Positions 12,841 through 58,947 of a DNA stretch of 64,000 nt are shown here, in pieces. Within the stretch, counting starts at the first letter, position 1, and the number at the start of each line of letters is the position of its first letter. This DNA is from Buxus sempervirens (lineage: Eukaryota; Streptophyta; Magnoliopsida; Buxales; Buxaceae). Both the position numbers and the translations under genes were made by a program. Below the pieces are notes generated by a model. The model saw only the letters and a list, made by a program, of their open reading frames with translations, had not been told where the DNA came from and searched no databases. The stretch is from the NCBI GenBank assembly GCA_947561395.2, contig OX387184.1, positions 28,200,766 to 28,264,765 on the forward strand. The letters run 5' to 3'.

Positions 12841-14023
12841 AAATATTGGTCATCAAGCATCAAGTACAGAGGAAATGTATGGCATGAGTACTGTATAAAA
12901 GTTAGTGCAACCTCCAATTGACCTCCTCATATTCTTACATGAACTGAAAGCACAAGCCAATGAGTCAACATGTCCCATCTGTGCGCGCGTGGGAAACGCG
13001 GCATGGGGTAATTTCGGAGTCGCCACCGCCTGATGGAGTGCAGGCGAACACCTGGGTGCCTAATCTTGTCTATTTAGGTCTTTGGCTCTGCGGCTTGAGA
13101 TTCTAAGGTTGGTTCTCGGTTGTGGGCTGGGGAAGTCCGTAGACACCCAAATCCGCCCCGTCGGATGACGGGTCCCGTGGGTTCCCTAACTTGAGTCAGC
13201 TTTCTCACTTTGGTTCTCACCCGATTCCTAATCCAGCATGTATTTTTTGTTAGGTCTTGGTGGGACCACCTGAGTGGTGTGGGTCCCTTTAATGGATTTT
13301 GCCTTTGCTTTATTCTTAAGCGATCTGGGCCTGTTTGGGTGGGCCTCGTTGGAAGGCCCACGGTATCCTTGGTGGGCTTGGTAAGCCCGTGTGCCCTTGG
13401 TGGGCCTCTGTCTAACCCTAAGAGGCCTTATGGGCTTTGGCTAATGAGTTAATTTTTATTAGGGTTTAAGTTGAAGCTTAGGTGTCTTTCATGCAAGTGG
13501 TGGGCCGGATCGGTTGGTGGGCCCACATGGTGACCAAGCAAGTTTAATTTATCTTTTTTTTCAATTTTTACCAAAGTGGGCTTGGTCATTGGGCTTGGGG
13601 CCCATGATCCAGGCCTCGGGCTTTGAAAGCCCAGTTCCTCGGGGTTTAGGGCTTGTACCCTAACTCGGTTCGGTTGGTGGGCTTTAGCGGGCCCGACATG
13701 TCCTAGCCCATGGTCTCGGCCAAACCACACAGTTCATGCACTTATTTCACACATCAAGGTACGGGCGGGCCGCATCGGGTTTGGCCCATCCGATTAGATA
13801 GGTTGATTTCACTTAATCTCGCTTAGTTGCATGCCTTAGGGTTCATTGAGTTTGGTGGGCCCCGTTGGAAGGCCCACTAGTGAGCCAAGTTGGACCGGTT
13901 GGTCCAAGTCCCATCTTGGGTTTCCGGGTGGCCCAGAAACCTTGTTGGCTTAATGGTTTTGACACAAATCATCTCAAAATTCGGCAATATATCTCAATAT
14001 ACAAAAAAACATGCTTCTGTGTG

Positions 14024-14163
14024 TATCCGGTAACTCAGGCTGGATATACAAGGTCTGCAGGTGATCCGGTCAGAGTGACCGGATACACAGGGGCTATGGG
14101 TTATCCGGCCTTGATGGCCGGATATGCTAAGGCCTCAGGTGATCCAGCCTGAGTTACCGGATC
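14024..14163. repeat. dyad array A: four 23-bp palindromes on a 39-bp period
   Basis: Palindromes start at 14024, 14063, 14102 and 14141, exactly 39 bp apart. Each is 23 bp, of the form (T/G)ATCCGG-N9-CCGGAT(A/C). The nine central bases vary but often keep extra pairing (for example GGTCA/TGACC and GGCC/GGCC). The 16-bp spacers are related to tgctaaggcctcaggt. The array lies in the transcribed part of the LTR, about 1 kb downstream of the TATA box in element sense. The other LTR keeps it at about 31802-31941. Confidence 0.95.
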
Positions 14164-15178
14164 ACCCTGGAATGGCCTTTTTTGGGCTTTGGCCTTTCGG
14201 GATTGATTCTTGAGGCTCCCAGGAGGGTTTTTGAGGTGCCGTGGGCCTCTGAGTGGGCCCACGTATGTTCAGGTTGTGGGAGAAGCCACTGTTGGCTTCT
14301 CCTTCCTGGATTCCCTAACACAGCAAATGTGGGAAGCTTGTTGCCCTCCCCGCCGCCTCTGGTCCAGCTAGCTGGTTGAGATGGGGACCTAAGCATCCCC
14401 ATCCGGTCTCCAGATCCTCACCAACGCATGCATGACTTCCCATGGTAGCATCATATCAAGATGATCAAGAAAAGAAAAAAAAAACATGCTTTACATGCTG
14501 GACTGCATACACATGCAAAACTTAGTAAGAAATCCAAGCCGAGAAGGGATATCCGGCTAGGCTCGTGCCAAGGTTTATGGCTCATCACGAAACCACCATC
14601 GAAGGGAAAGAGGAGGGGGATTAAAGGGGTACAGCAGATCACAAGATGGGAAGGAACATGCTCCTCCCATAAATTCTCAAAAACGGCACACTAAAAGCTA
14701 CTAAAAAAGGGGTGAAAAGATACTCCCATGCTTAAAGGAGAACCCACATAGACTTCCTAACCGGGGGGACTCTCATGCTATAAGAAAGGGAAATGAAATG
14801 CATGCTTGCATGGAGGGAACATGGCCCCATGCAAAAAAGGAATCACATAGCAACATTTTCAGAAAAATACAGATTTAATATATGTTGAACCTAACATGGT
14901 GAGGAGTCTTACCTGAGGTCCTTGACCTCTTGTGCAAGGTGGTGGTATGCCTTGGGGGTGGTGCAGCACCTGGGGACCTCCTTGGAGCACCAATCAGCAA
15001 CTCAAGTCCTTCTTGTTTCAGTAGGGATGGAGAGGAGAAGGAGAAGAGAGGAATGGCTTGGGGTGGTATGGGGGCCAAAGAGGCTGAAAGAGAGGGGATT
15101 TCGAGTGACAATGGGTGAGAGAAGAGAGCCCAAAATCGCATGAACAAAGGCCAACCCCAGATATGAGCTGCTGTTTTG

Positions 15179-15188
15179 CTATTTATAG
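15179..15188 (-). promoter_or_regulatory. TATA box of the Ogre LTR
   Basis: The minus strand reads CTATAAATAG, a perfect plant TATA box, between dyad array B and the 105-codon open frame. It is retained in the other LTR at about 34767-34776. Confidence 0.6.
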
Positions 15189-15199
15189 GCAACTTAATG

Positions 15200-15443
15200 T
15201 ATCCGGCAACTCAGGCCGGATACACTAAGGCCCCTTCGTATCCGGACTTCAAGTCCGGATACACTGGTTTCCCTTTGTATCCGGTAACTCAGGCCGGATA
15301 CATGACTTAATGATTTCAAAATTTAATGCCGCCGCGAATCTGTCGGCCAAGTGGCGCGAATTTCGCGCGAATATCTTTATGTATCCGGTCTTCAAGTCCG
15401 GCCATGAAGGATAGGCAGTGTATCCGGTATATGTGACCGGATA
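15200..15443. repeat. dyad array B: five 23-bp palindromes upstream of the LTR TATA box
   Basis: Palindromes start at 15200, 15239 and 15278 (39-bp steps), then at 15382 and 15421 (39 bp apart). The second, TATCCGGACTT-C-AAGTCCGGATA, is a perfect 11-bp-arm palindrome. The fourth has a decayed right arm. The array begins about 11 bp upstream (element sense) of the CTATAAATAG box, that is in the proximal U3 promoter. The counterpart in the 5' LTR is at about 34788-35021. Confidence 0.95.
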
Positions 15444-15997
15444 CAAATCGAAAAATTACAGATTTGCCCCTCGACTCGACCGATTCGACCGATTTGACCC
15501 TTTTTGATATCTACGGATTGCCCGTACGAAATTTTTATATTTAAGATTTTGTCCCTGAGATATTTTGCTGCGTTGGCTGCCACGTGTGCAGTTCCTGCGC
15601 CACGTGTGCAGTTTCCGGCTTCTGCTACCCGGAAACTTCGACAGATCATATCTCCTTCACCCGAATTCCGATTCGAGCAAACTCAATTGTGCTAAACTCG
15701 TATCGGGGCCCTCTATTTAATAACACAGGGCTAAGCACTTGGCACGGATTTCGAGGAAAAGTCAACTTTTGGCCTTCCCTCAAGTTTGACTTCCCTTAGA
15801 ACCCTCATCCGGACTCTGATCCCTGCAAACCCAGTTGCGTTGGAACCGTGTCGGGATTCTCTATCCTACGGGATAGATCAAGGTTAACCAAATTTTATCT
15901 GATTTAAAGGTCAACTTTTCACCCCTTAGGGTTTGACTTTCTGTCCAAGGCCTTGCATTTCTGGCCTTTCCGGGAGCGCAAAAAGGAGGTGCTTACA

Positions 15998-18129: not shown

Positions 18130-20157
18130 TTAGGCGTAGTACAGTTTGACTGCATCTGCATTTATCGGCTTAGGAAAAATTGCCCCATCCATTTCTTGTA
18201 GGATGAGTGCTCCTCGGGACAGAACCTTGTGGACTACGAATGGCCCTTCGTAGTTTGGCTTGAATTTCCCACGGTTGTCCTCTTGATGGGGAAAGATTCT
18301 CTTCAGTACTAGGTCTCCCACTTTGAACTGTCGTGGCTTTACTTTCTTGTTGTAGGCTCGCGCCACTCTCTGTTGATAAAGCTGGCCATGGCACAAAGCC
18401 TTGATCCTCTTTTCATCCAATAATTGCAACTGGTCAAATCTGGACTCTTCCCATTCGACGTCACTGATTTCAGCTTCCTTCAGAATTCTGAGTGATGGAA
18501 TATGTGCTTCCACGGGGAGGACTACTTCCATTCCGTATACTAAGGAGAACAGGGTTGCCCCGGTTGATGTCCTAATCGACGTCCGATAGGCGTGCAATGC
18601 ATACGGCAGCTTCTCATGCCAGTCTCTGTAAGTGACTACCATTTTCTCAAGTATTTTCTTCAGATTCTTGTTGGCAGCCTCAACTGCCCCATTCATCTTG
18701 GGCCGGTATGCCGTGGAGTTTAGATGTCTGATCTTCAGATCTTCACACATCTTTTCCATGTCCTTATTATTCAGATTCTTTGCGTTATCAGTGATGATCG
18801 CTTCTGGAACTCCATAGCGACAGACTATATTGTTTCTGATGAACTTGAGCACATGAGATTTCTTCACATCCACGAAGGACATGGCCTCTACCCACTTGGT
18901 AAAATAGTCAATTGCCACTAAGATGAACCGATGTCCGTTCGAAGCCATTGGATGAACTTGGCCTATCATGTCAATTCCCCAGATGGCAAATGGCCAAGGC
19001 GATGTCATAGAATACAATGTGTTTGGCTGTGCATGGATGTTGTTGGCATAAATCTGGCATAACTGGCATTTTCTGACATGAACGTAGCAGTCTACCTCCA
19101 TGGTCATCCAGTAATAGCCCATCCTTAGAATCTTCCTTGCTAGCATATGCCCATTCATGTGTGCGCCGCACAACCCTCCATGGACTTCCTCAATCAATTT
19201 CTGCGCCTCGGCTTCTCTGACACATAGCAGTAGGGAGTCATTGTATGACTTCTTGTACAGTCTACCCCCACTGTAGAAGTATTGCCCTACCAACCTCTGT
19301 ATAGTTCGCTTCTCTGCAGCTGAGGCACCTTCTGGCAGAATTCTGTTTCTTATGTATCTCTCAATGTCTGCGTACCAAGGCTCTTCTTCGGGCGTGCTTT
19401 TCTCGACACTGAAGCAGTAAACAGGGTAACACCGAATTTCTATCTCCAAAGGTTGCACCCAAGCATCATCCATGATGGTGGCCATTGATGCCAGCGTAGC
19501 TAGTGCATCCGCAAACCGGTTCCCGTCTCGTGGCATGTAGTCGAATGTCACGCTCTCGAATTCTTCTTCTAATTCCTTGACCAGTTCTTGGTATGGTACC
19601 AACTTCACATCTCTAGTCTTCCAGTTTCCCATCACTTGATAGATGATAAGACTTGAATCCCCGAACACTTTCAGCTCTTGTATACGCATCTCAATTGCCG
19701 CTCGCAAGCCTAACACACATGCTTCATATTCGGCCATGTTGCTAGTGCAATCAAACAGAAGTTTTGCTGCTATCGGGTGATGGACACCGTCTGGGGAGAT
19801 TAGCACTGCTCCGATCCCCTTTCCATTTACATTCACTGCCCCATCAAAGAACATCTGCCACTTGGTTTCTTCTGTATCATCTGCAGACTCTGTGCACATC
19901 ACATCTTCGTCCGGGAAGTGAGTCAGAAGTGGTTGGTAGTCAGGTAGTGGATGCTCTGCCAAGTGGTCTGCCACGGCTTGCCCTTTTATCGCCTTTCTAG
20001 TTGTGTAGACAATGTCATACTCAAATAAAAGGACTTGCCATCTGGCAACCCTACCAGTGGAGATCGGCTTCTCAAAGATGTACTTCAATGGATCCAGATT
20101 GGAGATTAGTAAGACTGTGTGACTAAGCAGATAGTGTCGGAGCTTCTGAGCTGCCTA
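18130..20157 (-). CDS. Ogre pol: RNase H C-terminus, archaeal-type RNase H and integrase
   Basis: The longest intact pol block has 652 codons after position 20088, plus an in-frame part back to a TAG at 20155-20157. The end of the normal RNase H (SNLDPLKYIFEKP, ARWQVLLFEYDI, ADHLAEHPL) is followed by a second RNase H with FFDGA (D82), AEYEA (E120), FGDSSL (D144) and RFADAL (D194). Next comes integrase with the zinc finger H310-x3-H314...C341-x2-C344 and the catalytic triad D373 (GIDMIG), D434 (ITDNAK) and E470 (NGAVEAANK). The C-terminal part contains the typical KVGDLVLKRIFP...KFKPNYEGPFVV stretch. All visible catalytic residues are kept, unlike in RT. The first residue numbered is the Met at 20088; translation would normally come from a polyprotein. 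Confidence 0.93.
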
Positions 20158-22322
20158 GACCAGTGCGCAACACGTCTTTTCAAGCACTGTGTATCTGACT
20201 TCGATGTTAGTAAATTTCTTGCACAAGTAATAGATTGCTTGTTCTTTCCGCCCTTTCTCATTGTGTCGCCCTAGCACACATCCTACAGCCGTCTCTGAGA
20301 CTGTCAGATACATGATCAAAGGTCGTCCTGGGACAGGCGGGACCAGCGTTGGTGGACTCATCAGATAGGCCTTGATCTTATCGAATGCTACCTGACAGTC
20401 ATCATTCCAAACCACAGGGTTGTCTTTCTTTAGCAGCTTGAATATAGGCTCACACACAGGGGTCATTTGTGCAATGAACCTACTAATATACTGCAATCTG
20501 CCTAGGAATCCTCTCACTTCCTTTTCCGTCGACGGAGGAGGCATTTCCAGAATTGCCTTTGCTTTGACGGGGTCGACCTCTATGCCCCGCTTGCCTACTA
20601 TGAAGCCGAGCAACTTCCCTGAAGTGACTCCAAATACACATTTGTTTGGGTTGAGCTGGAGCTTGTGCTCTCTGAGTCTGTCGAACATCTTTCCAAGGTT
20701 CACCAAGTGGTCTTCTTCTTCCTTAGACTTCGCTATCATGTCACCCACATACACCTCCATCTCCTTGTGTATCATGTCGTGGAATAACAAAGTCATTGCA
20801 CGCTGATATGTAGCACCCGCATTTTTTTCAGTCCGAACGGCATCACGCGGTAACAGTAAGTGCCCCAGTGCGTGATAAAGGATGTTTTCTCCATATCCTC
20901 GGGTGCCATTCTTATCTGGTTGTAACCAGAGAAGCCGTCCATGAAAGAGAACATCGAATGCGTTGCTGTATTGTCTACCAGTACATCAATGTGCGGCAGT
21001 GGGAAGTCGTCCTTCGGGCTTGCTCTATTCAGGTCTCTACAGTCGACACACATCCTGACTTTCCCATCTTTCTTGGGAACTGGCACAATGTTGGCTAACC
21101 ACTCTGGATAGTGAGTTACTTGCAGGAATCCAGCATCCAACTGCTTGGTGACCTCTTCCTTGATCTTCAGGGCCCATTCCGGCTTCGTGCGCCTGAGCTT
21201 CTGTTTCACAGGTACGGCCTCAGACTTTGTTGGTAACCGATGCACAACCAAGTCCGTGTCTAACCCGGGCATATCCTCGTATGACCATGCAAACACGTCA
21301 GAATAAGATTTAAGAAAATCAATCATCTGTTTTCTCAATAATGGTGACAGCTTTTTACCAATTTGGAGGATCCTTGGTTGTGCTATTTCACCTATGTTAA
21401 TTGGCTCTGTTTCCTCAATGTTAGCCTGGGGGCCCTTTTCATGCCTTTCCAATGCGAGTTGGATTTCAAGCGGGGTCTCCCATGATCCATCATTGTCCTC
21501 ATGTTCAAAAGGCTCACAGGGGACGATGTTTGAATCTTCTTGCTGCGATGGGCGAGTGCCCCAATCTGATTCGTCGAGTTCTTGCTCGTTTTCAGGATTG
21601 GATACTGGCTCATGCATTTCATTTATTGTTGTTGCCATCTGGACTGGCTTTTCTTTTTGTTTTTCCTGTTCACTTATGGCAATCTTACTACCTATCCCGT
21701 GCCCCAGACTTTCCGGGTGTGCGTCGGGATTGATGCTAAGATCGCGATGCTCAAGTTGTTCATTTTTGTTATTTTCTTTTTCAGACAAATGCAAGTAGTA
21801 AGAAGAGTTCAGGTATTCATTAAAAACTTTAGCAGTAGCTACAATGGAAATTTCAGAGGTGATAGGAACCCCCTTTGGAATGGTAGCTTTGCTGATGGCA
21901 AAAGGCGTGGCGCTCCAGTTTTTGAGTGGTGCCCGATCTTTCTTGTTGATGACGATTGCCGTTTCTGGTTCTTCAGCTAGTACCATGTTGGCGCTGTCGT
22001 CAGAAGATAGGCAGATCGGATCATGTACTGCGCCTCCCACTGGCTTGTTCTGGCTCCTCTCTGACTGGGGGCCAGATTCTGATGATATTGCCATCCATGC
22101 TCCACTGATGGGGATGGCCCACGGTATCTCGTCCCTGGGTGGCGCATACGCGATGGTGACTTCGTTGGCCGGGTCAACTCTAGGGGGTGCAAACATTATG
22201 GGTATTCCAGTTGGTATCCCAGGCACCGTAGAGGAGTAAGCTGGCGGTGCCCATTTGCCGTAAGCTGCATGGTATACCTCTTCCGGTACCGGCCCTAGCA
22301 CTTGGGGCATGCTACGGAACAT
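20155..22322 (-). pseudogene. Ogre pol: reverse transcriptase and start of RNase H, broken
   Basis: Element sense reads from a linker (YGKWAPPAY...) into RT (VTHYPEWLANIVPVPKKDGKVRMCVD broken across two conserved blocks, then FSFMDGFSGYNQI with the first catalytic Asp, then CYRVMPFGL). Three lesions are seen. The A run after FGLK (T run 20822-20828) has the wrong length and shifts the frame. The catalytic YxDD box downstream reads YVGD (about 20743-20754), losing one metal-binding Asp. The RNase H domain is cut by a TAG at 20155-20157 in CCALV-stop-AAQKLRHYLL, where a Trp is usual. The two halves otherwise keep family spacing. This copy cannot make active RT. Confidence 0.92.
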
Positions 22323-23900
22323 GCGGTTTAAACCATCGCGAGTTCCAGGGTGCGGGATATAGGGGGTGGAGGAGGCGACCTTGGCCTGCGGGTTGGTGCT
22401 CCTGAGCTGTCTCGCCCTTCCATCATGCAGACATACATGATTGGGCCTTCTTCTTTGGATTCTTCCTGGGGAGCAGGTGACGGCACTTCCATCACACTTG
22501 CAGAGTTGATCGAGATCCCATCAGGGATGAACTACTCATCTGGTGGGGAGAAGGCCATGGTGACTTCGTCGACTGAGTCCAAGGCGACCAGTGCTGGCAG
22601 GTCATCTGGTGGCCCCTCAGGAGCCAACGGGTCTACTTCCACTATGTCTCCAATCATGCCCATAGATGGTGGCTCCTCCCAGAGCATCTGAGCTAGGCCT
22701 TGCAGGTAGTCTTCTTCTACAGCAGGGGTTTCCAAAAACTCATCTCCCCATCCCTGGGGGACTATGTTCTCGATGGCCTGGGCCGCTTCACGCTCCATGT
22801 TAGCGAAGCGGTGGTATAAGTTCTCGTGTGTGCATATGGGCCAGTGGGGGTCTCTTCCTTCAGTTCTTGCCTTTTCCTCTCAGTATGGTTCCCAAGGAGT
22901 CGGGAGTAGTCTTCTGGCTGCGGTCTGAACCCCAGTCCAAAACCAGTAGTCTGCTCATAAGGTCGGATGGCTGCCTTAATTCCCTGCTTGTACTTGCCCA
23001 ATCCATCGCCGGCTCTGAGACCCCAATCTGCGCAGTCAGCAGCGCTGAACATGTACATTCTCCTCTTTTTCGAGAGTTGTCGCCCCCTTTCAGATTCAGG
23101 GATACGGTTCACCTGCACCATCTCCACTGCTTGGAAATTGAGTGTGGTGGGCAACTCATAATCCACATAGGGTACTCCGACCCTTTCGAACTCTCGGTGA
23201 TCCTCAGCGTGTACTGTTATAAGTTCGTTGCCTGACACGAACCGGGCCATTCTGTGCAGTGTGGAAGATACTGCTCCCGCCTGATGCAGCCACGGCCTCC
23301 CAATCAGCAAGTTGAATGAGGCGTTGATATCCATGAGTTCGAACTCCATGGTAAAGGGCCTATTTGCGATCATGATTACCAAACTGACCTCTCCCAGTGA
23401 GTCCCTTCGGGCGTTGTCAAAGCCTCTAACATTATGCCCACTTGGTTTGATCATTGAAGGATCTAATTGTAAACTGTGAAACGTCCTCATCGGGCATATG
23501 TTCAGTGCCGACCCATTGTCAATCATGGCACGTTTTACAATGAGATCCGCACACTTCACGGTTACATAGAGCGGCTCGGTGTGATTGCACCCTTCAGATG
23601 GCAGGTCTGCCGCAGAAAAGGAGATAGCCTGGGGTGCCATGATCACTGACACCACTGCCCCTAGCTGCTCCGGATCAATATCTGTTGGTACGTGTGCGTC
23701 ACCCAGGACCTTCATCAGCACTGCCCGGTGCTTCTCTGAATCAATCAAGAGCCTCATTATGGAAATCTGGGCGGGTACCTTGTTCAGTTGCTGGAGTAGA
23801 TCATATTCGGGAGTGTAGATGCTGTGGTGCAGATCCGTGACTTCCTCTTCTGTGGCCCTTCCCTTTCTTTTGAGGGTCGGTGGCAATTCTGTGACCACGT
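22323..23900 (-). pseudogene. Ogre protease region and linker, broken
   Basis: The frame at 22762-23898 carries a retroviral-type aspartic protease. AMIDNGSALNICPM holds the active-site Asp (D127 from the first Met), with Asn in place of the more common Ser/Thr next to it, followed by FELMDINASFNLLIGRPWLH with the Gly-Arg flap-like motif. After the G-patch-like end (GDGLGKYKQGI) the frame shifts near 22800 and again meets a stop at 22532-22534. The linker to RT is proline- and glutamate-rich. The shift at about 23905, in a GA-rich run, separates it from the gag-side frame. Confidence 0.85.
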
Positions 23901-24480
23901 CCTTCCCTTTTTCTTTCCTTTTTGCTTCTGCTTCTGCTCCCTCCTCTGGTGCGGGTGGGGGTCGGTGTTTACGTATCGGCCGGATCGGGTGATTCGGTCG
24001 ATTTCTGCTTCAATGGTGGTTGTGGAGGTGGCCTGATGATGGAACGATTGGGTGGGGTAAGGTGGGGGTGCGGCCTTATACGATGGCGGCTCTAGGTGGA
24101 GCTTCGAAAGGTTCAGTGTGGGTGGTTCGAATGAAAGGCGGAAGGGGTCTTGTGGAGGCGAGTCCATGATGTCGTGGATGTTGAGGGTTAAAGGGCTAGG
24201 GTGAGAGATGGGGGTTGGGTAGAGGAATTCCTAGTCTTCGGATGGGTGGAAGTGCACCAGAGGGAAATCTGTAAGGGGGTCACCGCCGTCTCCTTCAATG
24301 ACGTTCACTGTCCTGCTTTCTGCTGACGCTTCCTCTGAGTCCATATTAGGGGATTCGTCCGAACTCTCATATGGATCAAGCAGGGTGGCAAGTTCAGGAG
24401 GGGATGGTGGTTCCTCTTCCTCCGTGGCATAAGGGGGGACGAACCACTCCGACATGCCGTGGGAAGAGGATTCTGAACTC
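23784..24480 (-). pseudogene. Ogre gag-pol linker
   Basis: An acidic stretch (SEWFVPPYATEEEEPPSPPE...) ends in a TAG at 24231-24233. In the same frame it resumes with MDSPPQDPFRLSFEPPTLN and IDRITRSGRYVN, the latter a signature of Tat gag-pol junctions, then a basic KQKGKKKG run where the frame is lost. It is not clear whether the TAG is a natural gag stop or a mutation. Confidence 0.65.
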
Positions 24481-26448
24481 GGCTCCGCTGATAGAGGATC
24501 GGTGAGGGATTGCAGGTCCGGTCTGAAGTCGCAGACATATACTCAGGTGGCCATCCGGTAGACATCTGCGGGGGTACCCTTGAGCTGTCCACGGACGCGT
24601 CTGTATCCGGTGGCCCATTTCGGAACCAGGGTCCTTCAGAACTGCCGATTCCTTCTCTGCGTGGAGGGGATGGGGAGTCATTGATCCATCCGCATTGCAC
24701 TGGGTTCCATGCCCCGTGACCTCCTCACTGCTCTGCGGTTCATCCTCTATGACACAGATGTGGACGTCTGTATTTTCCTCAACTGCACCAGCTGCCAAGG
24801 GGGTTCCTGTTTGCAGCTGTACCCTCACTGTCGGCCCTGGCCGTCCGATAAGTATGGAAGGGTCGAACTGCCTGGTGCCCTGATCACTGCTCACCTGATT
24901 CGCCGTCCTACTAGTGGAGGCCTTTGAGTGATCTGGGAGAGGATTGGTGGTCACGCCAGCTGCTGGAGTCTGGGCAGGGGGTGCCGAGGGATCGACAGTG
25001 ATGCGTTTACTGTCAATCAGGTCTTGGATATCGTGCCTCAAATCCCAGCACCGATTGGTATGGTGCCCGGGAGCACCGGAGTGGTACTCGCATCGCTCTG
25101 CTGCGTTATAGCTTCTAGCATTGACCAGGCGGGGATTTGGGGGTTTGACCTGTACGTACCCCTTCTTCAGCAAAGTAGGCAGCAACTCTACCGGCGCATA
25201 CGGGAGTGGAGTGAAGACCCGCTTCATTCTGGCCTCCATCTCTTCCCTGGTTCTTCTTACCCCTTGGTAAGCAGCCTGCGCGGTCCCTTGAGGTGCCACT
25301 GCTTCTGGCCTTCGAGAGAAATGGTGGGGTGGTGCAAGGTGTACATAGTTGACTGCCTGCTGCTCCTGCCTCCTGGGCTCTTGTCCCTGACTCCTGCCAC
25401 CTAGTCCTGCTACTGGCCTTCTTGGTGCGGCACTCTGCCCACTGCCATCTATCTTTCCGGCCCTCACTGCATCTTCAATCCGATCCGCAGTCAAGATCAG
25501 GTCATTGAAGTTCGAAGTACTTTGCCCCAGCAACAAAGTGAAGAATGGTTGTCCCAGCGATGCGATAAATAGAGATGTCATCTCTTGTTCCAACAGTGGC
25601 GGCTGTACTAGTGTTGCCAACTCCTTCCAGCGTTTGGCATACTCTCTCACCGACTCATGGCTTTTCTTGGTCAACCTCTGTAGTTCTGCCCTAGTCTGCA
25701 CAATCTGACTGTTCAGGCGGTACTGCCGGATGAAGACTGCTGCCAGGTCATTCCATGTCTTGATCTTAGCCTTGTCTAAACTCAGGAACCAAGAGTAAGC
25801 GGCCCCGGTTAGTGACTTTTGGAAGAATTGCACCATGATCCGTTCTTCCTTGGCATATTGGCACATGTCGCCTGAATACGACCTTAAGTGGTTCAGTGGG
25901 CACCCAGTGCCGTCAAACTGGTGCAACTCAGGGCATTTGAACTTAGCCGGGAGTTGTATGTCCGAAAAGAAGCAGAGGCTTTCCAGGGTAGCCTCGCTCT
26001 GCACTGTACTGGGTTGGAGCTGTTTGAGCTGCTCCTTCAGCGTGGCCATTTCTGTTCTGTTTTCCTCTCTTACTACCGTCAGCTTTTCCTCAAACTGCAC
26101 CTCCTGCGTTCTGTACCAGTCTTCATCACCCTGTCCCAGATGGATGGGTAGAAACTGATCCTGTTGAGCAACATGGAATGGGGGCGCTGGCCGTGGTGGT
26201 GCCAGGGGAGGGGGATTCACTGGACGCGGTGGTGGCGCTACCTCTGCTTGCGGCGGAAATTGTGGCTACGGCTGCTGGGTAACTGGTGCCCCTGGTGGGC
26301 CCTGCCTTAACTCTCTCAGCTCTGTCATTAGCTCCTGGATGATAGAACTCATGTTGTCCATTTTCTGTTGCATCTCATTAACTATTTGGGCATGACTGGA
26401 TTCAGCCAGATGCTGCCCTGGCGGTGTTTGCTCTCCTTGCTGTTCCAT
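24394..26448 (-). pseudogene. Ogre gag, interrupted
   Basis: The ATG at 26446-26448 opens a glutamine-rich N-terminus with a short coiled-coil-like part (EMQQKMDNMSSIIQELMTELRELRQ). A TAG at 26266-26268 interrupts the frame after 60 codons. The same frame then continues into the retrotransposon gag domain: FDGTGCPLNHLRSY, SLTGAAYSWFLSLDKAKIKTW, DLAAVFIRQYRLN, TRAELQRLTKK, SVREYAKRWKELA. A short CEYHSGAPGHHTNRCWDL segment is the zinc-knuckle-like motif (C-x2-H...H-x4-C). The C-terminal part slips frame at about 24480-24700. Confidence 0.9.
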
Positions 26449-27780: not shown

Positions 27781-29214
27781 CTAGCTAGGTTGGTCATCAT
27801 CATAGTGGGAGGACACATCCTGCCTCCTCAAGGCTCGCAGAAGTTTGTTCCGCAGACGTCGGTCCTCCTCGGCGCGTTTGTGGACTAATTCCATTTCATG
27901 TTGCAAGGCCGTATTGGCCTGCCTACTCTCCCGTTCCGAATCCACATAAGCTGAATGGATACGGGAGTGGGTCTCCTGCAGTTCGGCCACCCTGTCCCTG
28001 TATGTGTTAAGGGGCGGAACTGGAATGTCGCTTGAAGCGACAGGCTGAAAAGGTGGGGGGCCGTCGTGGCCGAACTCCCGAGCTATCCACTGCTCGTAGT
28101 CTCGAAAATGTGATTCGATGAAGACGTCTTCTCGATATACACACACTGTCTTCCACTCCATCAGCAGTTGGGTCCTTAGTCCCTTGGTGAGTGGACCAGT
28201 CAAATTGCCCAAGTCGTCCTTGACCGGGATTCCCTGCGGTTTCCCAAACTGTCTCAGAACCCGGATCGGATAGTACGGCATGGCATGGGTAAGGCCTATC
28301 AGGGAAAGTCCCTCTCTTTTCTTGAAAGCTATGATGGGGGTGTAAGGGATGTTGTATGTACCCCACCATCTAATGTCCGTTTCTCCCTTCAGGTGGAGAA
28401 AGTGGTTAAACCAATCCTCACGAGCGGGTAGGTCTGGTTTGATCTCTCTTTGAGCCAACCAATGGATGTTGTCGCCGGTTGCCTTGTAATATGCACTGAC
28501 GGGTGACGACACTATCAGGTGGTCTTGCAGCCAAATGTGGAGAAGGGGAGCGCACCCTTGAAACCTCCGAGTTCCATTTTTGGACAAAGTCAGGGAATGG
28601 AACAGTTGAGCTAGGATCAGTGGCATGATTCGGTACCCCGCCCTGAGTTGATCCACAATTTCCATGAGGGCCAAATTAATGGTGTCTCCCCCAGTTGGAA
28701 AGAAGATTTGTGACAGAACCACAAGGGTGAAGGTGTCAAACCAAGCCCGAGGTCTTTCCGGCTTTTTGTTTCTCATTTTCTCAGCTAGGAATGTTTTAGA
28801 GACCCGAGTAAATGATTTGTCACCTCCTAAGGTCTGAAATTCTCCCCTTGAGAGGCCAAAGAAAATACAAGCTTCATTCTTGTAACTTTCTTTGAGACTT
28901 GGCCTAGCGGGTTCTCCTAAGTCACGAAATCGGAGAAACAGGTCAAGTTCCTCAATTGTGGGAGTCAACTCGTTGACCCCGAATCGAAACACTGAAAGCT
29001 GGGGATCCCAGAAAAGCAGGGCCGCTTGGATCATATCCCAGTTAATCGGCACATTTAACAGGGACAAAGTCTGTCCCATGTGGTATTTGTGCTCCCATTC
29101 AATCTGGTCACTCCCTTGGAGCTGCCTTGTCCAAGAATGGATCCAGGGGGTATCCCAGGCGCACTTCTCTATCCTAGGGAAACGAGTTCTCTCAGATGAG
29201 GATGAGGATGCCAT
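27781..29214 (-). CDS. Ogre ORF1, plant-mobile-domain-like protein
   Basis: An intact 477-codon frame from the ATG at 29212-29214. The start was chosen there because the upstream in-frame codons include no other ATG. It lies upstream of gag on the same strand, the position of the extra ORF1 of Ogre elements. The middle carries LSVFRFGVNELTPTIEELDLFLRF, reminiscent of the plant mobile domain / ORF1 family (FxFxxxELTPTLEE), and SLTLSKNGTRRFQGCAPLLHIWLQDHL. The C-terminus is a charged helix (ELQETHSRIHSAYVDSERESRQANTALQHEMELVHKRAEEDRR), probably coiled coil. Its biochemical role is unknown. It is the only Ogre frame without a visible lesion besides integrase. Confidence 0.8.
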   Translation of the reverse strand: MASSSSSERTRFPRIEKCAWDTPWIHSWTRQLQGSDQIEWEHKYHMGQTLSLLNVPINWDMIQAALLFWDPQLSVFRFGVNELTPTIEELDLFLRFRDLGEPARPSLKESYKNEACIFFGLSRGEFQTLGGDKSFTRVSKTFLAEKMRNKKPERPRAWFDTFTLVVLSQIFFPTGGDTINLALMEIVDQLRAGYRIMPLILAQLFHSLTLSKNGTRRFQGCAPLLHIWLQDHLIVSSPVSAYYKATGDNIHWLAQREIKPDLPAREDWFNHFLHLKGETDIRWWGTYNIPYTPIIAFKKREGLSLIGLTHAMPYYPIRVLRQFGKPQGIPVKDDLGNLTGPLTKGLRTQLLMEWKTVCVYREDVFIESHFRDYEQWIAREFGHDGPPPFQPVASSDIPVPPLNTYRDRVAELQETHSRIHSAYVDSERESRQANTALQHEMELVHKRAEEDRRLRNKLLRALRRQDVSSHYDDDQPS

Positions 29215-30736
29215 GCCAACTATCCGATCGAAATTCCGAATCAATTTAAGGTTCCACACCAAGACTCTAAGTTAGTCCTAAGACATGCATAATTTTAAGC
29301 AAAAGAGATAACCACTATCAGTTCTAGCATGCTTCACCAAATGAAGAAAGAACAAAGCAATGCGGAATTTAACTCAGGCACACATGGTGTGTGGCCCTAA
29401 GGGTTGGCGCCAATGAAGGCGCAACTCCTAGACATACTTGTGTAGAGGAGCACATTCAAGTCCCGATCAGTCTTTCTGTCTTTCATCTGTTCTTTCATCT
29501 GCTTTCGGTGTCGGACCATAGCGAAATTACAACTTGCCATCGAGGGCGAATTTTTACAAGATATTTACAAAAGCTGCAAAGGATTCATCCTTAAGGCTGT
29601 TGGGAGCCAAAAGGGAGGATACAAATTGCTTTCAAAGTGGGGTAGGCTAAAAAATCCCTAAATCTAGGGTTTAGTGCCCTGGCATGCTTTCATCTGTTTG
29701 TCTGATCTGGCCGGCTTTCGTCTGCTCTAAAAGACCAATCTGGACTTAAAGTGCTCCCAGCGGACTCTAATGGGCCAGGACCCATAGCATACAGGACTCC
29801 ATGCATGGATCTGGGGTGGTTCCCCTGATCAAAAATTAGGTGAGCTTCCTAAATTAGGGCTGAGGTAGCCCAGCATCTAGGGTTTACTCAATTTGATTCA
29901 AAGAACGGGGGTTGCTGCCCCAAATGGACTCTGGATTTTATTCTGATTTTATTCATCATTCACATCCTACTCACCCTCTCATGCTCAACGCAAGGTTCAT
30001 TCAGAAACGTTAGGTGGGGAAGGATACCCAGCCCGAGACATAAGCCTACAAGGGTCTGGACTAGTACTGGATCCTCGCGTGCCACGGCAAGAAACAAGTG
30101 GTGCTAATGGACTCCAGCAAACTGGGGGGATGGGTTTACCCTGCTTTCCCCGGCAAGCCACGAGAGCGTAGGTGCTAATACCACCCCAAAGATCAGTTCA
30201 TAGTAAGAAGAAGGGTAGGCTGCTAGAGAGGTCTAAGTTTTGGTAAAGAAGTAGCAATGTTCGATTCTCTCATCTATCAAAGGTCGGATCATTCACGCAT
30301 CCTCCCTCGTGCGTGTCACCCCACGCAGTTTTATCATACCAATGCGAAAATTTAAAATTTAAATCTACGCAATTATCCATCCACGGTGTGGTGGTGTGCC
30401 CGTGTGTGCAGTTGAGCTGCGTGCTGTGCCTATACGGGTGAGTTTTATCTGGATTTAGGTGATAAAGGAATCCCTACTGCCTCGTATAGTAAAGTGCAGC
30501 ATTGGCACGTTTTACGATGTCCTGGGAGAATCCCCAGGTAAGTGGAGGGTCACAGGGGACCACTTAAATTCCACTTGCCTTAGGCAATTATCGCGTCCTT
30601 GTGACAGGACTCCCCAGAACACGTATCAACGTGTATTCTGTACCTTGCTAAGCGGGGTAGCAAGGGTTCCTAAAATATCGCCTAAGTCCCTCTTGAGCTG
30701 ACTCGGTCCTAAGTAGGGTCCTACTGGGCTGAGAGG
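29215..30736. other. Ogre 5' leader
   Basis: About 1.5 kb between the primer site and ORF1, GC-balanced, with many short open frames but no recognisable protein. Confidence 0.6.
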
Positions 30737-30757: not shown

Positions 30758-33700
30758 TGTGCGCGCGTGGGAAACGCGGCACGGGGTAATTTCGGAGTCG
30801 CCATCGCCTGATGGAGTGCAGGCGGACACCTGGGTGCCTAATCTTGTCTATTTAGGTCTTTGGCTCTGCGGCTTGAGATTCTAAGGTTGGTTCTCGGTTG
30901 TGGGCTGGGGAAGTCCGTAGACACCCAAATCCGCCCCGTCGGATGACGGGTCCCGTGGGTTCCCTAACTTGAGTCAGCTTTCTCACTTTGGTTCTCACCC
31001 GATTCCTAATCCAGCATGTATTTTTTGTTAGGTCTTGGTGGGACCACCTGAGTGGTGTGGGTCCCTTTAATGGATTTTGCCTTTGCTTTATTCTTAAGTG
31101 ATCTGGGCCTGTTTGGGTGGGCCTCGTTGGAAGGCCCACGGTATCCTTGGTGGGCTTGGTAAGCCCGTGTGCCCTTGGTGGGCCTCTGTCTAACCCTAAG
31201 AGGCCCTGTGGGCTTTGGCTAATGAGTTAATTTTTATTAGGGTTTAAGTTGAAGCTTAGGTGTCTTTCATGCAAGTGGTGGGCCGGATCGGTTGGTGGGC
31301 CCACATGGTGACCAAGCAAGTTTAATTTATCTTTTTTTTCAATTTTTACCAAAGTGGGCTTGGTCATTGGGCTTGGGGCCCATGATCCAGGCCTCGGGCT
31401 TTGAAAGCCCAGTTCCTCGGGGTTTAGGGCTTGTACCCTAACTCGGTTCGGTTGGTGGGCTTTAGCGGGCCCGACAGGCCCTAGCCCATGGTCTCGGCCA
31501 AACCACACAGTTCATGCACTTATTTCACACATCAAGGTACGGGCGGGCCGCATCGGGTTTGGCCCATCCGATTAGATAGGTTGATTTCACTTAATCTCGC
31601 TTAGTTGCATGCCTTAGGGTTCATTGAGCTTGGTGGGCCCCGTTGGAAGGCCCACTAGTGAGCCAAGTTGGACCGGTTGGTCCAAGTCCCATCTTGGGTT
31701 TCCGGGTGGCCCGGAAACCCTGTTGGCTTAATGGTTTTGACACAAATCATCTCAAAATTCGGCAATATATCTCAATATACAAAAAAACATGCTTCTGTGT
31801 GTATCCGGTAACTCAGGCCGGATATACAACGTCTGCAGGTGATCCGGTCAGAGTGACCGGATACACAGGGGCTATGGGTTATCCGGCCTTGATGGCCGGA
31901 TATGCTAAGGCCTCAGGTGATCCGGCCTGAGTTACCGGATCACCCTGGAATGGCCTTTTTTGGGCTTTGGCCTTTCGGGATTGATTCCTGAGGCTCCCAT
32001 GAGGGTTTTTGAGGTGCCGTGGGCCTCTGAGTGGGCCCACGTATGTTCAGGTTGTGGGAGAAGCCACTGTTGGCTTCTCCTTCCTGGATTCCCTAACACA
32101 GCAAATGGGGGAAGCTTGTTGCCCTCCCCGCCGCCTCTGGTCCAGCTAGCTGGTTGAGATGGGGACCTAAGCATCCCCATCCGGTCTCCAGATCCTCACC
32201 AACGCATGCATGACTTCCCATGGTAGCATCATATCAAGATGATCAAGAAAAGAAAAAAAACATGCTTTACATGCTGGACTGCATACACATGCAAAACTTA
32301 GTAAGAAATCCAAGCCGAGAAGGGATATCCGGCTAGGCTCTGTGAGACATGGGAAAAAATCAATCTAAATGATTTCCTCAATCATCACACGGGATTATAT
32401 TAAACAAAGAGTCGCCACCATTCAATCTAGGTGTGAATGGACACCAAAATATTAAATAAGCACAAAAGGCAATTTTAGGGCAAAATATCCCTCCTAAAAA
32501 AAACACAACCAGAGATGGGTAAGGGGATTAAGTTATGAACAGGGGAAGGTGTTAGGCACCCCTATTCATCCACACAAGGTGGTTGCCAGGTATTTGTTCA
32601 TGTTAAAATAAAGGAAAAAGCTTGCTATAAAAATCACGAAAAATCACAAAAAAAGGCAAAAATATATGGTTTTTTTCATAGGAATAGTCTGATTGATCCA
32701 GAACTATCAAACATGATCATACCATTCCTAGGGTTTCATGATCAAAAATAAAATTGAGATAAAATCCAATAAAATCAATTTAAAGTGAAAAATCCAAAAA
32801 TCTGGCTTCAAGCTAAATTCTAGAAATCTAGGAAATATGATTTTTATAAAATATTTCAAAATTGAACTTGAATAGTCCAGGACATAGATAAAGCCCAAAT
32901 TTCACATTAAATCAGAAAATCAAAACCAAAAATACCCACGTTGATGAAAAACACCAAAAAGGGAGAATTTAGACCGTAGGGTCTTCTCTCAATAATGAAA
33001 AACGATTTAAAAACCACATCATGAAACCCTAGAATTTATTTTCAGGCTTTTAGATTCAGATTTACCATATTGATCATGATAAATCCAAGATCCTAGCCTA
33101 AAATCACAAAAATCACAAAAACAGTGCTGTAGGTGCAAAAGTGGCAAAAATCCAAATTTTGGCAAAAAGAGAGGATCTCATGCTATAAACATCATAGATT
33201 CATTTTATTCATTCAGATATATCATAAAAAGCATTAAAACATGATCAAGATATTCAAAATAGCCATATCTCACAAATTAGAGCACATGGGGGTCTACCCT
33301 ACAGATCCACCTGTTCCCTTTTCCCCTAGTTCTCTCTTCACGTTTTACGACTAGAGAGACTCTTGAGGTACTTGGAGATAGGTTTGGTTACACAAACACA
33401 ATCACAGGCCTTATTCTAAACAAAAAAACAGATATGGGGTTCTATTCTAGGGATCCACCTGTTCCCCTTTCCCCTAGTTCTCTCTTCACGTTTTACGGCT
33501 AGAGAGACCCTTGAGGTACTTGGAGACAAGTTTAGGAATACAAAAACAGATATGGCCTTATTCTACAGCAATAGAGATGATCCTATTACATCTAGAATTG
33601 AAGACAGAAAATAAAAAAGGATAGGAGACTTACCTGGATTGAGCAGGCAGAGCAGCAGGGATTCCTTTCCTTCTCTTGGAGCTTTTGATTCTTCAAAATT

Positions 33701-35564
33701 TCGTGGCCCTTAGCTAGAGGAATGAGCCTCTATTTATAGACACACCCAGGGGAATGGTTGGTCCAGAAAGATATAGCCTGGTCTTTAGGATAGAGTGAAA
33801 TACAGAGATAATGCCCATCCATAGCCAACCAAGGTAGCTTTCAGCGAATAAAACACCTAATTTGCTTATTTAAAGATATATTGGACTTCAAATAAAGCTC
33901 GGAAATCGAGAAAAGGACAAAACTCGCACGTGTCTTTAATGCCCGTAAATGCACTACGGTCCAATGGGGACCGTATAGTTACTACGGGCGCGCCTGTCCG
34001 TAGATTAATTTCGGGCGCGATGGGCCCGTGAAGGAAATACGGGCAAAGCCGGTTTATTCAATTTTTATGCTTTTTTGACATGTTTTAAGCTCTAATTACA
34101 TGTTTTTATTATTTTCTCATTTGGCAGTGCAATTTGGGGTGTCTACAGGCTCGTGCCAAGGTTTATGGCTCATCATGAAACCACCATCGAAGGGAAAGAG
34201 GAGGGGGATTAAAGGGGTACAGCAGATCACAAGATGGGAAGGAACATGCTCCTCCCATAAATTCTCAAAAACAGCACACTAAAAGCTACTAAAAAAGGGG
34301 TGAAAAGATACTCCCATGCTTAAAGGAGAACCCACATAGACTTCCTAACCGGGTGGACTCTCATGCTATAAGAAAGGGAAATGAAATGCATGCTTGCATG
34401 GAGGGAACATGGCCCCATGCAAAAAAGGAATCACATAGCAACATCTTCAGAAAAATACAGATTTAATATATGTTGAACCTAACATGGTGAGGAGTCTTAC
34501 CTGAGGTCCTTGACCTCTTGTGCAAGGTGGTGGTATGCCTTGGGGGTGGTGCAGCACCTGGGGACCTCCTTGGAGCACCAATCAGCAACTCAAGTCCTTC
34601 TTGTTTCAGTAGGGATGGAGAGGAGAAGGAGAAGAGAGGAATGGCTTGGGGTGGTATGGGGGCCAAAGAGGCTGAAAGAGAGGGGATTTCGAGTGACAAT
34701 GGGTGAGAGAAGAGAGCCCAAAATCGCATGAACAAAGGCCAACCCCGGTTATGAGCTGCTGTTTTGCTATTTATAGGCAACTTAATGTATCCGGCAACTC
34801 AGGCCGGATACACTAAGGCCCCTTCGTATCCGGACTTCAAGTCCGGATACACTGGTTTCCCTTTGTATCCGGTAACTCAGGCCGGATACATGACTTAATG
34901 ATTTCAAAATTTAATGCCGCCGCGAATCTGTCGGCCAAGTGGCGCGAATATCTTTATGTATCCGGTCTTCAAGTCCGGCCATGAAGGATAGGCAGTGTAT
35001 CCGGTATATGTGACCGGATACAAATCGAAAAATTACAGATTTGCCCTCGACTTGACCGATTTGACCCTTTTTGATATCTACGGATTGCCCGTACGAAATT
35101 TTTATATTTAAGATTTAGTCCCTGAGATATTTTGCTACGTTGGCTGCCACGTGTGCAATTCCTGCGCCACGTGTGCAGTTTCCGGCTTCTGCTACCCGAA
35201 AACTTCGACAGATCATATCTCCTTCACCCGAACTCCGATTCGAGCAAACTCAATTGTGCTAAACTCGTATCGGGGCCCTCTATTTAATGACACAGGGCTA
35301 AGCACTTGGCACGGATTTCGAGGAAAAGTCAACTTTTGGCCTTCCCTCAAGTTTGACTTCCCTTAGAACCCTCATCCGGACTCTGATCCCTGCAAACCCA
35401 GTTGCGTTGGAACTGTGTCGGGATTCTCTATCCAACGGGATAGATCAAGGTTAACCAAATTTTATCTGATTTAAAGGTCAACTTTTCACCCCTTAGGGTT
35501 TGACTTTCTGTCCAGGGCCTTGCATTTCTGGCCTTTCCGGGAGCGCAAAAATGAGGTGCTTACA
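30758..35564 (-). repeat. 5' LTR of the Ogre element, split by a solo LTR
   Basis: Matches the 3' LTR along its length, with sparse substitutions and small indels (for example one copy of gcgcgaat lost near 34945). Removing the nested 1807-bp solo LTR and its 5-bp duplication leaves 2995 bp against 3018 bp in the other LTR. Dyad arrays, TATA box and G-box repeats are all preserved. Confidence 0.95.
32341..34147 (-). mobile_element. solo LTR nested in the Ogre 5' LTR
   Basis: Begins TGTGAGACATGG, ends GGTGTCTACA, flanked by GGCTC (32336-32340, 34148-34152). The other Ogre LTR shows the empty site at about 14556-14570. Ends and interior landmarks (gagtcgccacc, gtgttaggcac, ctctcttcacgttttac) match the solo LTR at 50182-52590 in opposite orientation, so both belong to one family. 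An inner block of about 150 bp is duplicated (33280-33390 and 33430-33535). In element sense (minus) a CTATAAATAG box lies at about 33729-33738, with short palindromes such as TACGGTCC-AATGG-GGACCGTA (33955-33975) upstream. Confidence 0.93.
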
Positions 35565-35569
35565 CCATC

Positions 35570-56400: not shown

Positions 56401-56541
56401 ATTGAAATCTATCTCCATCTCCACTGTATATCTCCACTATATATAAAGCGAGGTGCCCTTTTCGGGAAGTGTGCCAAACTAAATTATACCTCTTTGTCAA
56501 GACTAATTAATAAAAGGATATATCGGTAAAAACCACCTCAA

Positions 56542-56835
56542 ATGTCTGCAACCTCCCATTTCGTTCCACAACTGCTCCCTCCCACATCATTTCTGGAGAA
56601 CTCCTGCAAGGCTAAAACCTCCCATTCCGTTCCACAACTGCTCCCTCCCACATCATCTCCGGAGAACTCCTGCAAGGTTAAAACCTCTCATTCCGTTACA
56701 CAACTGCTCCTTCCCACATCATCTCCGCAAAACTCCTACAAGGCTAAAACCTCCCATTCCGTTCCACAACTGCTCCTTCCCGCATCATCTCCTACCCTCC
56801 GACTACCTCACGTTGCAGTTCTTCTCGTCCGTTAG
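56542..56835 (+). repeat. 66-bp tandem repeat, in frame (22-codon unit), also at 57800-58093 and 59333-59560
   Basis: Four units in A1 and A2, three in A3, each giving a variant of KTSHSVPQLL-PTSSPENSCKA. The open frame starts MSATSHFVPQ and ends with LRLPHVAVLLVR just upstream of the DNMT2 ATG, probably in the captured 5' UTR. Loss of one unit in A3 is exactly 66 bp. Confidence 0.85.
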
Positions 56836-56842
56836 CAGATCC

Positions 56843-57124
56843 AATGGAAGAGAGTTTCTGCAAAAGCAAGGACGAACCATGGAGGATTCTTGAATTCTAC
56901 AGCGGAATTGGGGGCATGGTATGAACCCCATCTTCCTAAAACCCCAATTTTCTATGCAGCTTCTGTTGTATCATGGTTGTTTACTGTGTCTCTCTCGCTT
57001 TCTCTCTGGAAAAAGATACTCGATCATGCGTGCTGGAGTTTCAGCGGTCATGGTTGAAGCTTTTGACGTAAACGACAAAGCAAACGATGTTTAAGAATTC
57101 AACTCTAGCCATTGCCCTTTCCAG
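56843..57124 (+). pseudogene. DNMT2: captured DNMT2 exons 1-2, copy A1
   Basis: Exon 1 (56843-56918) codes MEESFCKSKDEPWRILEF then YSGIGGM and a gtatg donor; FYSGIGG is methyltransferase motif I that binds S-adenosylmethionine. Exon 2 (about 57014-57124) continues IMRAGVSAVMVEAFDVNDKA, the DNMT2 hallmark. It contains a TAA (57092-57094) where copy A3 has a Tyr codon, and the acceptor AG has been altered by base changes. The protein is a tRNA-Asp cytosine-38 methyltransferase; only the first 50 or so residues are here, without catalytic PPCQ. Confidence 0.88.
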
Positions 57125-57336
57125 GTTCGCTTTCAATAGTCTCTGTGAAGTGGACCGGCGAAAAATGTGTTTTTATTTTTAGGTATTGCAGTCATACATG
57201 CTCGAGGGATTTTCAATTTAGGAACTATAATTGGCTTAGAATGATGTAATTGTAATTTGTACTCAATCACTAGATGGTATCTTCCCCAATTTCTCTGTAA
57301 TTCAAATTATTTGTCATGATTGAATCTCCATCTCCA

Positions 57337-57615
57337 TCTACTATATATAAAGCGAGGAGCCCTTTTTGGGAATCGTGCCAAACAACAAGTTACAATTTTC
57401 ACAAAATGCCCATCTCCTGTATGGTTTAGTTTCAATAATACAGGGCTATATCTGTCTCAACTCACTATTTTTGTTCAAAAACAATTAGTTTGTAACTATC
57501 CCCACTTCTCCTCTCTCCATTCCCTCTCTCCCCATTTATTCTCTCTCCACGTTCAGTTTTAAAACTACTCCCTCCCTTTTTTACGTGCGTGCAGTACTGC
57601 ACGTGGCCCTGCTAG
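57337..57615 (+). mobile_element. short Helitron B1 (279 bp)
   Basis: Starts TCTACTATATATAAAGCG and ends with the hairpin ACGTGC-GTGCAGTACTGCACGT then ggccctgCTAG followed by T. All expected Helitron terminal features are in 279 bp with no gene. Confidence 0.85.
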
Positions 57616-57689
57616 TCTAGCCTATGCGAGGCGCTCCTTGCGAATTGCGCCAATCTAACCTTGCGCCAATCTAGCCTATGCGATACATA

Positions 57690-58594
57690 TCTACTATATA
57701 TAAAGCGAGGTGCCCTTTTTGGGAAGTGTGCCAAGCTAAATTATACCTCTTTGCCAAGACTAATTAATAAAAGGATATATCGGTAAAAACCACCTCAAAA
57801 TGTCTGCAACCTCCCATTTCGTTCCACAACTGCTCCCTCCCACATCATTTCTAGAGAACTCCTGCAAGGCTAAAACCTCCCATTCCGTTCCACAACTGCT
57901 CCCTCCCACATCATCTTCGGAGAACTCCTGCAAGGTTAAAACCTCTCAATCCGTTACACAACTGCTCCTTCCCACATCATCTCCGCAAAACTCCTACAAG
58001 GCTAAAACCTCCCATTCCGTTCCACAACTGCTCCTTCCCACATCATCTCCTACCCTCCGACTACCTCACGTTGCAGTTCTTCTCGTCCGTTAGCAGATCC
58101 AATGGAAGAGAGTTTCTGCAAAAGCAAGGACGAACCATGGAGGATTCTTGAATTCTACAGCGGAATTGGGGGCATGGTATGAACCCCATCTTCCTAAAAC
58201 CCCAATTTTCTATGCAGCTTCTGTTGTATCATGGTTGTTTACTGTGTCTCTCTCGCTTTCTCTCTGGAAAGAGATACTCGATCATGCGTGCTGGAGTTTC
58301 AGCGGTCATGGTTGAAACTTTTGACGTAAACGACAAAGCAAACGACGTTTAAGAATTCAACTCTAGCCATTGCCCTTTCCAGGTTTGCTTTCAATAGTCT
58401 TTGTGAAGTGGACCGGCGAAAAATGTGTTTTTATTTTTAGGTATTGCAGTCATACATGCTCGAGGAATTTTCAGTTTAGGAACTATAATTGGCTTAGAAT
58501 GATGTAATTGTAATCTGTACTCAATCACTAGATGGTATCTTCCCCAATTTCTTTGTAATTCAAATTATTTGTCATGATTGAATCTCCATCTCCA
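57690..58594 (+). mobile_element. Helitron unit A2
   Basis: Almost identical to A1 at an offset of about 1258 bp, including the inserted short Helitron and the 74-bp stretch ctagcctatgcgaggcgctc... between units. The whole A+B+spacer block has therefore been duplicated in tandem. Confidence 0.85.
58102..58382 (+). pseudogene. DNMT2: captured DNMT2 exons 1-2, copy A2
   Basis: Same structure as A1 (exon 1 at 58102-58177). It shares the TAA in exon 2, so A1 and A2 share a recent ancestor that already had this break. One changed residue (EAF to ETF) distinguishes it. Confidence 0.88.
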
Positions 58595-58873: not shown

Positions 58874-58947
58874 TCTAGCCTATGCGAGGCGCTCCTTGCG
58901 AATTGCGCCAATCTAACCTTGCGCCAATCTAGCCTATGCGATACATA

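Follow-up and report, generated by a model that had tools for sequence, protein, structure and literature searches.

The long terminal repeats (LTRs) of an Ogre-type retrotransposon in Buxus sempervirens contain arrays of a 23-bp dyad with the consensus TATCCGG-N9-CCGGATA. Each LTR carries nine of these dyads, with a run of four in R/U5 and runs of three and two in U3, and the pattern of conservation across the family suggests that they are, probably, sites for a dimeric sequence-specific DNA-binding protein, either a host factor or the product of the element's own ORF1. The element was found in a stretch of 64,000 nucleotides, referred to throughout as the window (GenBank assembly GCA_947561395.2, contig OX387184.1, positions 28,200,766 to 28,264,765). 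It lies on the minus strand and is flanked by duplications of CCATC at 12975-12979 and 35565-35569. The LTRs were delimited by BLAST of the window against itself, and the frames were assigned with Pfam. The features are as follows, with strand where one applies.

12980-15997, minus strand: 3' LTR (left), TG...CA ends with the duplication CCATC
14024-14163: R/U5 array of the left LTR, four dyads (14024, 14063, 14102, 14141)
15179-15190, minus strand: TATA box GCCTATAAATAG of the left LTR, 12 bp from the first U3 dyad
15200-15300: U3 array a of the left LTR, three dyads (15200, 15239, 15278)
15382-15443: U3 array b of the left LTR, two dyads (15382, 15421)
18130-22520, minus strand: frames for reverse transcriptase (RT), RNase H, second RNase H and integrase
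24394-26265, minus strand: gag frame (Retrotrans_gag)
27781-29271, minus strand: ORF1, plant mobile domain (PF10536) / DUF7745 (PF24924), upstream of gag
30758-35564, minus strand: 5' LTR (right) with an interruption of ~1.8 kb, matching the left LTR in two pieces at 98.7% and 97.4% identity
31802-31941: R/U5 array of the 5' LTR, four dyads (31802, 31841, 31880, 31919)
34767-34777, minus strand: TATA box of the 5' LTR
34788-34888: U3 array a of the 5' LTR, three dyads (34788, 34827, 34866)
34959-35020: U3 array b of the 5' LTR, two dyads (34959, 34998), the preceding gap lacking 11 bp relative to the left LTR

The available portions of PMC6317226 define Ogre elements by an additional RNase H, aRH, that sits between RNase H and integrase, and report an extra ORF with a plant mobile domain in 57% of them. 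Both features were recovered with Pfam: frame 18130-20154 contains RVT_3 between RT_RNaseH and rve, and ORF1 at 27781-29271 is the extra ORF. By these domain assignments the gag, RT, RNase H, aRH and integrase frames, together with ORF1, give the element an Ogre make-up. Ogre elements also have a non-coding stretch, an intron, that separates the protease frame from the RT frame. A gap of 241 bp separates frames 22762-24009 and 20793-22520 here, and Pfam found no protease domain in frame 22762-24009; this minus-strand frame in the interval between gag and RT has a weak G-patch match below the cutoff (E 0.0015). The insertion of ~1.8 kb in the 5' LTR (~32341-34146) has TG...CA ends and a repeated flank, AGGCTC, and looks like a solo LTR. 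Outside the element, tandem duplications of ~1.26 kb at 56428-60053 are 95-98% identical, with a 66-bp minisatellite in each.

All nine palindromes listed for the left LTR in the initial annotation are present and mirrored in the other LTR. When up to three mismatches were allowed, the window yielded 20 dyad matches, of which 18 are the LTR dyads, against a mean of 1.03 and a maximum of 4 in 100 shuffles. The proposed geometry, two 7-bp arms around a 9-bp centre, is correct, although four of the nine dyads in the left LTR are imperfect (14024, 14063, 14141 and 15382). For dyads 14024 and 14141 the arm defect is a CpG transition that is absent from the other LTR (31802-31824, 31919-31941). The CpG transitions in 14024-14046 and 14141-14163 are by chance complementary to one another. 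Perfect 7-9-7 dyads number seven in the left LTR (mean 0.22 and maximum 2 in 200 shuffles), including two with a different word, GTGGGCC-N9-GGCCCAC. These two lie in the downstream part of the LTR, at 13339-13361 and 13855-13877, and recur at 31117 and 31633 in the same part of the other LTR.

Neighbouring dyads within the three runs of the left LTR are 39 bp apart in all six intervals, as had been claimed, and 104 bp separate 15278 from 15382. In the CpG-rich gap that separates the U3 runs, 11 bp (15354-15364) are missing in the right LTR, the only such case in the 20 loci shown of 39 copies aligned with the window. The minus-strand orientation of the element puts the dyads at 15200-15443 before the TATA box, in promoter-proximal U3, and the R/U5 array at 14024-14163 would lie in the transcribed part, ~1 kb downstream of the expected transcription start. 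The ratio of observed to expected CpG is 1.31 in the U3 array, compared with 0.27-0.91 in three other stretches of the LTR, and 0.56 in the R/U5 array. Farther into U3, GCCACGTGTGCAGTT, which contains CACGTG, occurs at 15579-15593 and 15599-15613, 20 bp apart; the second copy plus the next letter reads TGTGCAGTTT, which agrees with the DOWN motif CATGCAGTTT, as quoted in the part of PMC9899485 available to us, in 8 of 10 letters.

A search of the 676.5-Mb genome with the U3 array returned 2153 first-look candidates, of which 40 were scored (96-100% identity); two of these lie in the window and the other 38 copies were fetched. The 3 + 2 layout of U3 was present in all 38, with run starts 182 bp apart in 37 and 181 bp apart in one, and 36 of the 38 had an R/U5 run of two to four units. 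Unit number in R/U5 varies by whole 39-bp steps. Since these copies had been selected by the array, samples drawn without it were added. Both arrays were found in five of six copies chosen through ORF1 (LTR pieces 70-89% identical); in the sixth, L184, two R/U5 units were seen and no U3 array was found within the stretch fetched. A further copy, L193, which was obtained as a relative of ORF1, turned out to belong to the window's own family and has both arrays. Finally, the neighbouring stretch 15500-15840 was used as query and hit 38 places outside the window, 20 of which were taken. The initial annotation had held that copies lacking the 39-bp phase would point to a decaying tandem repeat; 16 of these 20 copies show spacings of exactly 39, 39, 104 and 39, and the remaining four each differ in one place. 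Pooling of 65 loci gave 288 spacings of 39 bp among 292 spacings of up to 80 bp (the exceptions being 8, 38, 70 and 78), and the distance from TATA box to first dyad was 12 bp at all 63 TATA matches measured.

Conservation within U3 was assessed in 26 copies whose selection did not involve the array (the 20 neighbour-chosen copies, L185-L189 and L193; L184 was excluded because it showed no U3 array). Minor-letter frequency was 0.018 in the arms, 0.094 in the centres, 0.080 in the spacers and 0.085 in the 81-bp gap. The arms are thus ~5 times less variable than the rest, a contrast reached by none of 10000 permutations and none of 243 shifts. For R/U5, 37 of 39 aligned sequences were used after removal of L132 and L142, and the corresponding values were 0.049 for arms, 0.156 for centres, 0.200 for spacers and 0.150 for flanks; again, none of 10000 permutations or 139 shifts reached the contrast. 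The array-chosen sample gave a weaker contrast in U3 (0.013 versus 0.032 and 0.023; 248 of 10000 permutations, 9 of 243 shifts). Across 44 copies, CpG was kept at 0.958 in U3 arms, 0.915 in R/U5 arms and 0.851 in the remaining LTR, and CpG outside the arms but within the U3 array at 0.916. This retention of CpG in the arms is not separate evidence, because all other arm letters are better kept as well. The dyad arrays are maintained, with fixed arm spacing and phase, and the data support this over a decaying repeat. The arms proved constant across copies rather than covarying as had been anticipated, which argues for recognition of the sequence itself.

Relatives of ORF1 were sought in the same genome with a Solanum homologue, and six LTR stretches were fetched. 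A sister family (L190, L191 and L217) carries a different 23-bp dyad, TGCCCGT-N9-ACGGGCA, at a period of 27-28 bp; the periods 39 and 28 differ by about one helical turn. Compared with the window's word, it has other letters at positions 2, 3 and 7 of both arms. U3 of L190 contains 3 + 2 dyads (967, 995, 1023, 1133, 1161) starting 13 bp after the TATA box, and its R/U5 has four degenerate units (61-145); recognizable U3 units are 2 + 2 in L191 and 1 + 2 in L217. The centre of L190 unit 995, ACTTCAAGT, is identical to that of window unit 15239. Beside the L190 element, L190:2241-2380 contains a four-unit TATCCGG array in 39-bp steps that apparently belongs to a neighbour. The L190 array gave 2816 candidates, 40 of them scored at 93-100%. 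L192 has yet another word, GGTGAGCGC/GGTGGGCGC, with an array in R/U5 and a single dyad by the TATA box (1610 candidates, 40 scored at 96-100%). In all four divergent stretches in which both places were seen (L190, L191, L217 and L192), U3 and R/U5 have their word in common. The place of the arrays is therefore alike across families and the word is family-specific.

In the mechanism that we favor, each 7-bp arm would be one half-site and the N9 centre a spacer. Next to the TATA box, the 3 + 2 dyads of U3 would serve the LTR promoter as a proximal enhancer; the run in R/U5, with the same word ~1 kb downstream, may be bound by the same protein. The suggestion of a dimeric protein goes back to the initial annotation, and it gains support from the kept arms and their fixed spacing, the whole-unit differences among R/U5 runs, the position by the TATA box, the single word in both runs, the different words in relatives and the high CpG ratio of the U3 array, since the palindromes before the TATA box in Sireviruses likewise mark CpG islands according to the available parts of PMC2829016. 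Several observations count against it: L216 (1031-1236) has 28-bp direct repeats (AGGAGTT words) and no such dyad just before its CTATAAA box, the sister family has degenerate dyads in R/U5, with 2-6 of 14 arm letters off, and the U3 contrast is weak in the array-chosen sample. A literature search for the dyad words returned no known factor with such a site; its two hits, judged from the listing, deal with mouse gut microbes and with pancreatitis. A host nuclear factor is a likelier reader than ORF1, and we give this identification a little under an even chance. For the TATCCGG word, half-sites common to unrelated elements (Sireviruses) favor the host factor, although the two groups may have converged on CpG-rich palindromes with no reader in common.

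Two alternatives dispense with a DNA-binding protein. The dyads might be a neutral tandem repeat whose units are kept alike through unequal exchange and conversion, a process that would fit the whole-unit steps in R/U5 and the copy L185, in which centres are swapped or inverted between units. Exchange of whole units should not, however, fix two 7-bp arms while the centre and spacer drift, and we disfavor this explanation as very improbable. The dyads might instead serve in RNA, as hairpins or through mutual pairing of the R/U5 leader with the U3 part of the transcript, for dimerization, packaging or strand transfer. Both strands fold far better than shuffles (z -9.0 and -9.8), the transcript can include both arrays, and the two arrays share a word that differs between families on both sides. 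However, near-palindromes must fold in this manner, and the covariation that would bear out the structured RNA raised in the initial annotation is missing. Among 459 in-phase units we found no symmetric arm change at positions 2-7, in a test whose power is low because few arm changes are common to several copies. Symmetric change occurs only at position 1 (37 of the 459), and since the last R/U5 unit has an initial G in 33 of 36 copies and a final C in all 36, this class fits one inherited change. Nor do the centres show the compensation claimed for them: in 63 middle R/U5 units, 1.83 of 4 positions pair, not above all shuffles (1.69, maximum 1.86). In most copies, unit 1 of R/U5 can pair with the last unit (7.61 of 9 versus 7.32 in shuffles), but in 7 of 41 copies only 2-3 of the 9 centre letters pair, and we rejected a conserved R/U5 cloverleaf built on this pairing, which exceeds shuffles overall and is nearly lost in those seven. 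Compensatory change in arms and centres was likewise rejected; across 459 units and 41 copies none was found save for one outer, inherited-looking pair. With the U3 dyads also held at a fixed distance from the TATA box, a role in RNA structure seems distinctly improbable.

A further alternative, one form of the protein-binding explanation, assigns the sites to ORF1, which the initial annotation named as a candidate reader. ORF1 would dimerize through its C-terminal helix, bind the dyads and prevent silencing of its own LTR, in the manner of VANC proteins in VANDAL elements, with word and protein coevolving. The 496-residue frame is intact in 26 of 30 fetched copies, the best 30 of 87 listed, and dN/dS across these 26 frames (325 pairs) is 0.15, so that ORF1 is, judged by its coding sequence, a maintained gene under purifying selection. 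Structure prediction gave a mean pLDDT of 37.8 for ORF1 alone and 57.3 with 25 sequences; a coiled-coil-like C-terminal helix is predicted confidently and would suit a dimer. No match to ORF1 was found in the PDB by sequence, and none by fold at E 0.001. MAIN and MAIL1, plant-mobile-domain relatives, act via genes with a promoter motif, binding being unproven (PMC7156037 and PMC9899485, as far as their available parts go), and the MAIL1-linked motif CATGCAGTTT is absent from the dyad arms. ORF1 of L190, L191 and L216 is 74% identical to that of the window; in both the TGCCCGT family and L216, the words differ as well. By contrast, an ORF1 that is 94% identical lies between two LTRs of the L192 type (C1:59642969 and 59662315), whose word is different. 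Either few residues set specificity, or ORF1 is not the reader. ORF1 is a possible reader, and the L192 element speaks against it. Sireviruses are not known to have a plant mobile domain. They carry similar arrays, as the accessible text of PMC2829016 describes. On balance, we regard this reading as unlikely. Generalized to Ogre families at large, it would have private dyad addresses at two fixed places, by the TATA box and in R/U5, read by an element-encoded plant-mobile-domain dimer that counters silencing, with the word swapped as a set in each new family; this wider form is slightly less probable still. If true, it would explain what the extra ORF of Ogre elements does and provide a retrotransposon counterpart of VANC.

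Comparison with known systems, based on the available portions of the papers cited, places the probable protein-binding dyads near the repeated palindromes (RMs) of Sireviruses of the Ty1/copia type. Palindrome arrays before the TATA box are already known in that group (PMC2829016), where they lie in a CpG-rich part of the LTR, have a family-specific motif and show a CGG-CCG core in 12 of 13 cases. The window LTR also has a repeated palindrome upstream of its TATA box, in surroundings that resemble a CpG island in the U3 array, and the Citrus motif, AATCCGGCTWRCCGGATT, has ATCCGG/CCGGAT half-sites in common with the window dyad (PMC2829016). Among the differences, the carrier in the window is a Ty3/gypsy element of the Tat group (RT-RNase H-integrase order, aRH). 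The RM centres listed are shorter than N9, the parts of PMC2829016 at hand report no strict period, and the second RM site is upstream of ENV rather than in R/U5. The sister word TGCCCGT/ACGGGCA is ordered CCG...CGG, the reverse of the RM core.

The published account of Ogre elements agrees with the window element in the order of domains, in the place of aRH before integrase and after RNase H, in the ORF with a plant mobile domain and in the long LTRs, and palindromic LTR arrays are not mentioned in the available parts (PMC6317226). In the open-licence literature searched for palindromes in Ogre or gypsy LTRs, only the Sirevirus paper (PMC2829016) was reached, and the available parts of PMC11963269 and PMC3601003 do not describe arrays of this kind. 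Viral contigs contained 107 stretches with the dyad pattern (80 listed), about what we estimate by chance for 14 fixed bases in a collection of that size; the sole clustered case among those listed, L050, consists of TTATCCGGA repeats with unrelated frames and was rejected. The integrase frame had no match in viral contigs. For Ogre, no report of such arrays with a second array in R/U5, a strict period and a further word in a similar layout was found in the open-licence literature searched.

The targets of VANC proteins in VANDAL elements are also short words in non-coding tandem repeats that differ between related families and evolve together (available parts of PMC5735166 and PMC10398659). 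Family-specific words in non-coding tandem arrays are likewise found here, the window family, L190/L191/L217 and L192 all differing; other words accompany 74% ORF1 identity in two cases and 94% identity in the L192 element. VANDALs, however, are DNA transposons, their motifs have one orientation and are not dyads, and their binding protein is known (PMC5735166, PMC10398659), whereas the window dyads have a candidate reader only. MAIN and MAIL1 offer a further likeness, as plant-mobile-domain proteins tied to a short promoter motif; that motif, CATGCAGTTT of the MORC1 promoter, is not the dyad, and the accessible parts of PMC7156037 and PMC9899485 do not show direct binding for these proteins either.

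The dyads are a precise and testable cis-element in a large Ogre family, judged by its 2153 first-look candidates (40 scored), and their word varies by family at two separate places in the LTR while the layout stays alike. They also offer a direct test of the role of the plant-mobile-domain ORF of Ogre elements. Together with the Sirevirus palindromes, they suggest a convergence of unrelated plant retrotransposons on dyads that contain CCG and lie next to the TATA box, and one reader, once found, could explain the palindromes of Ogre elements and Sireviruses alike.
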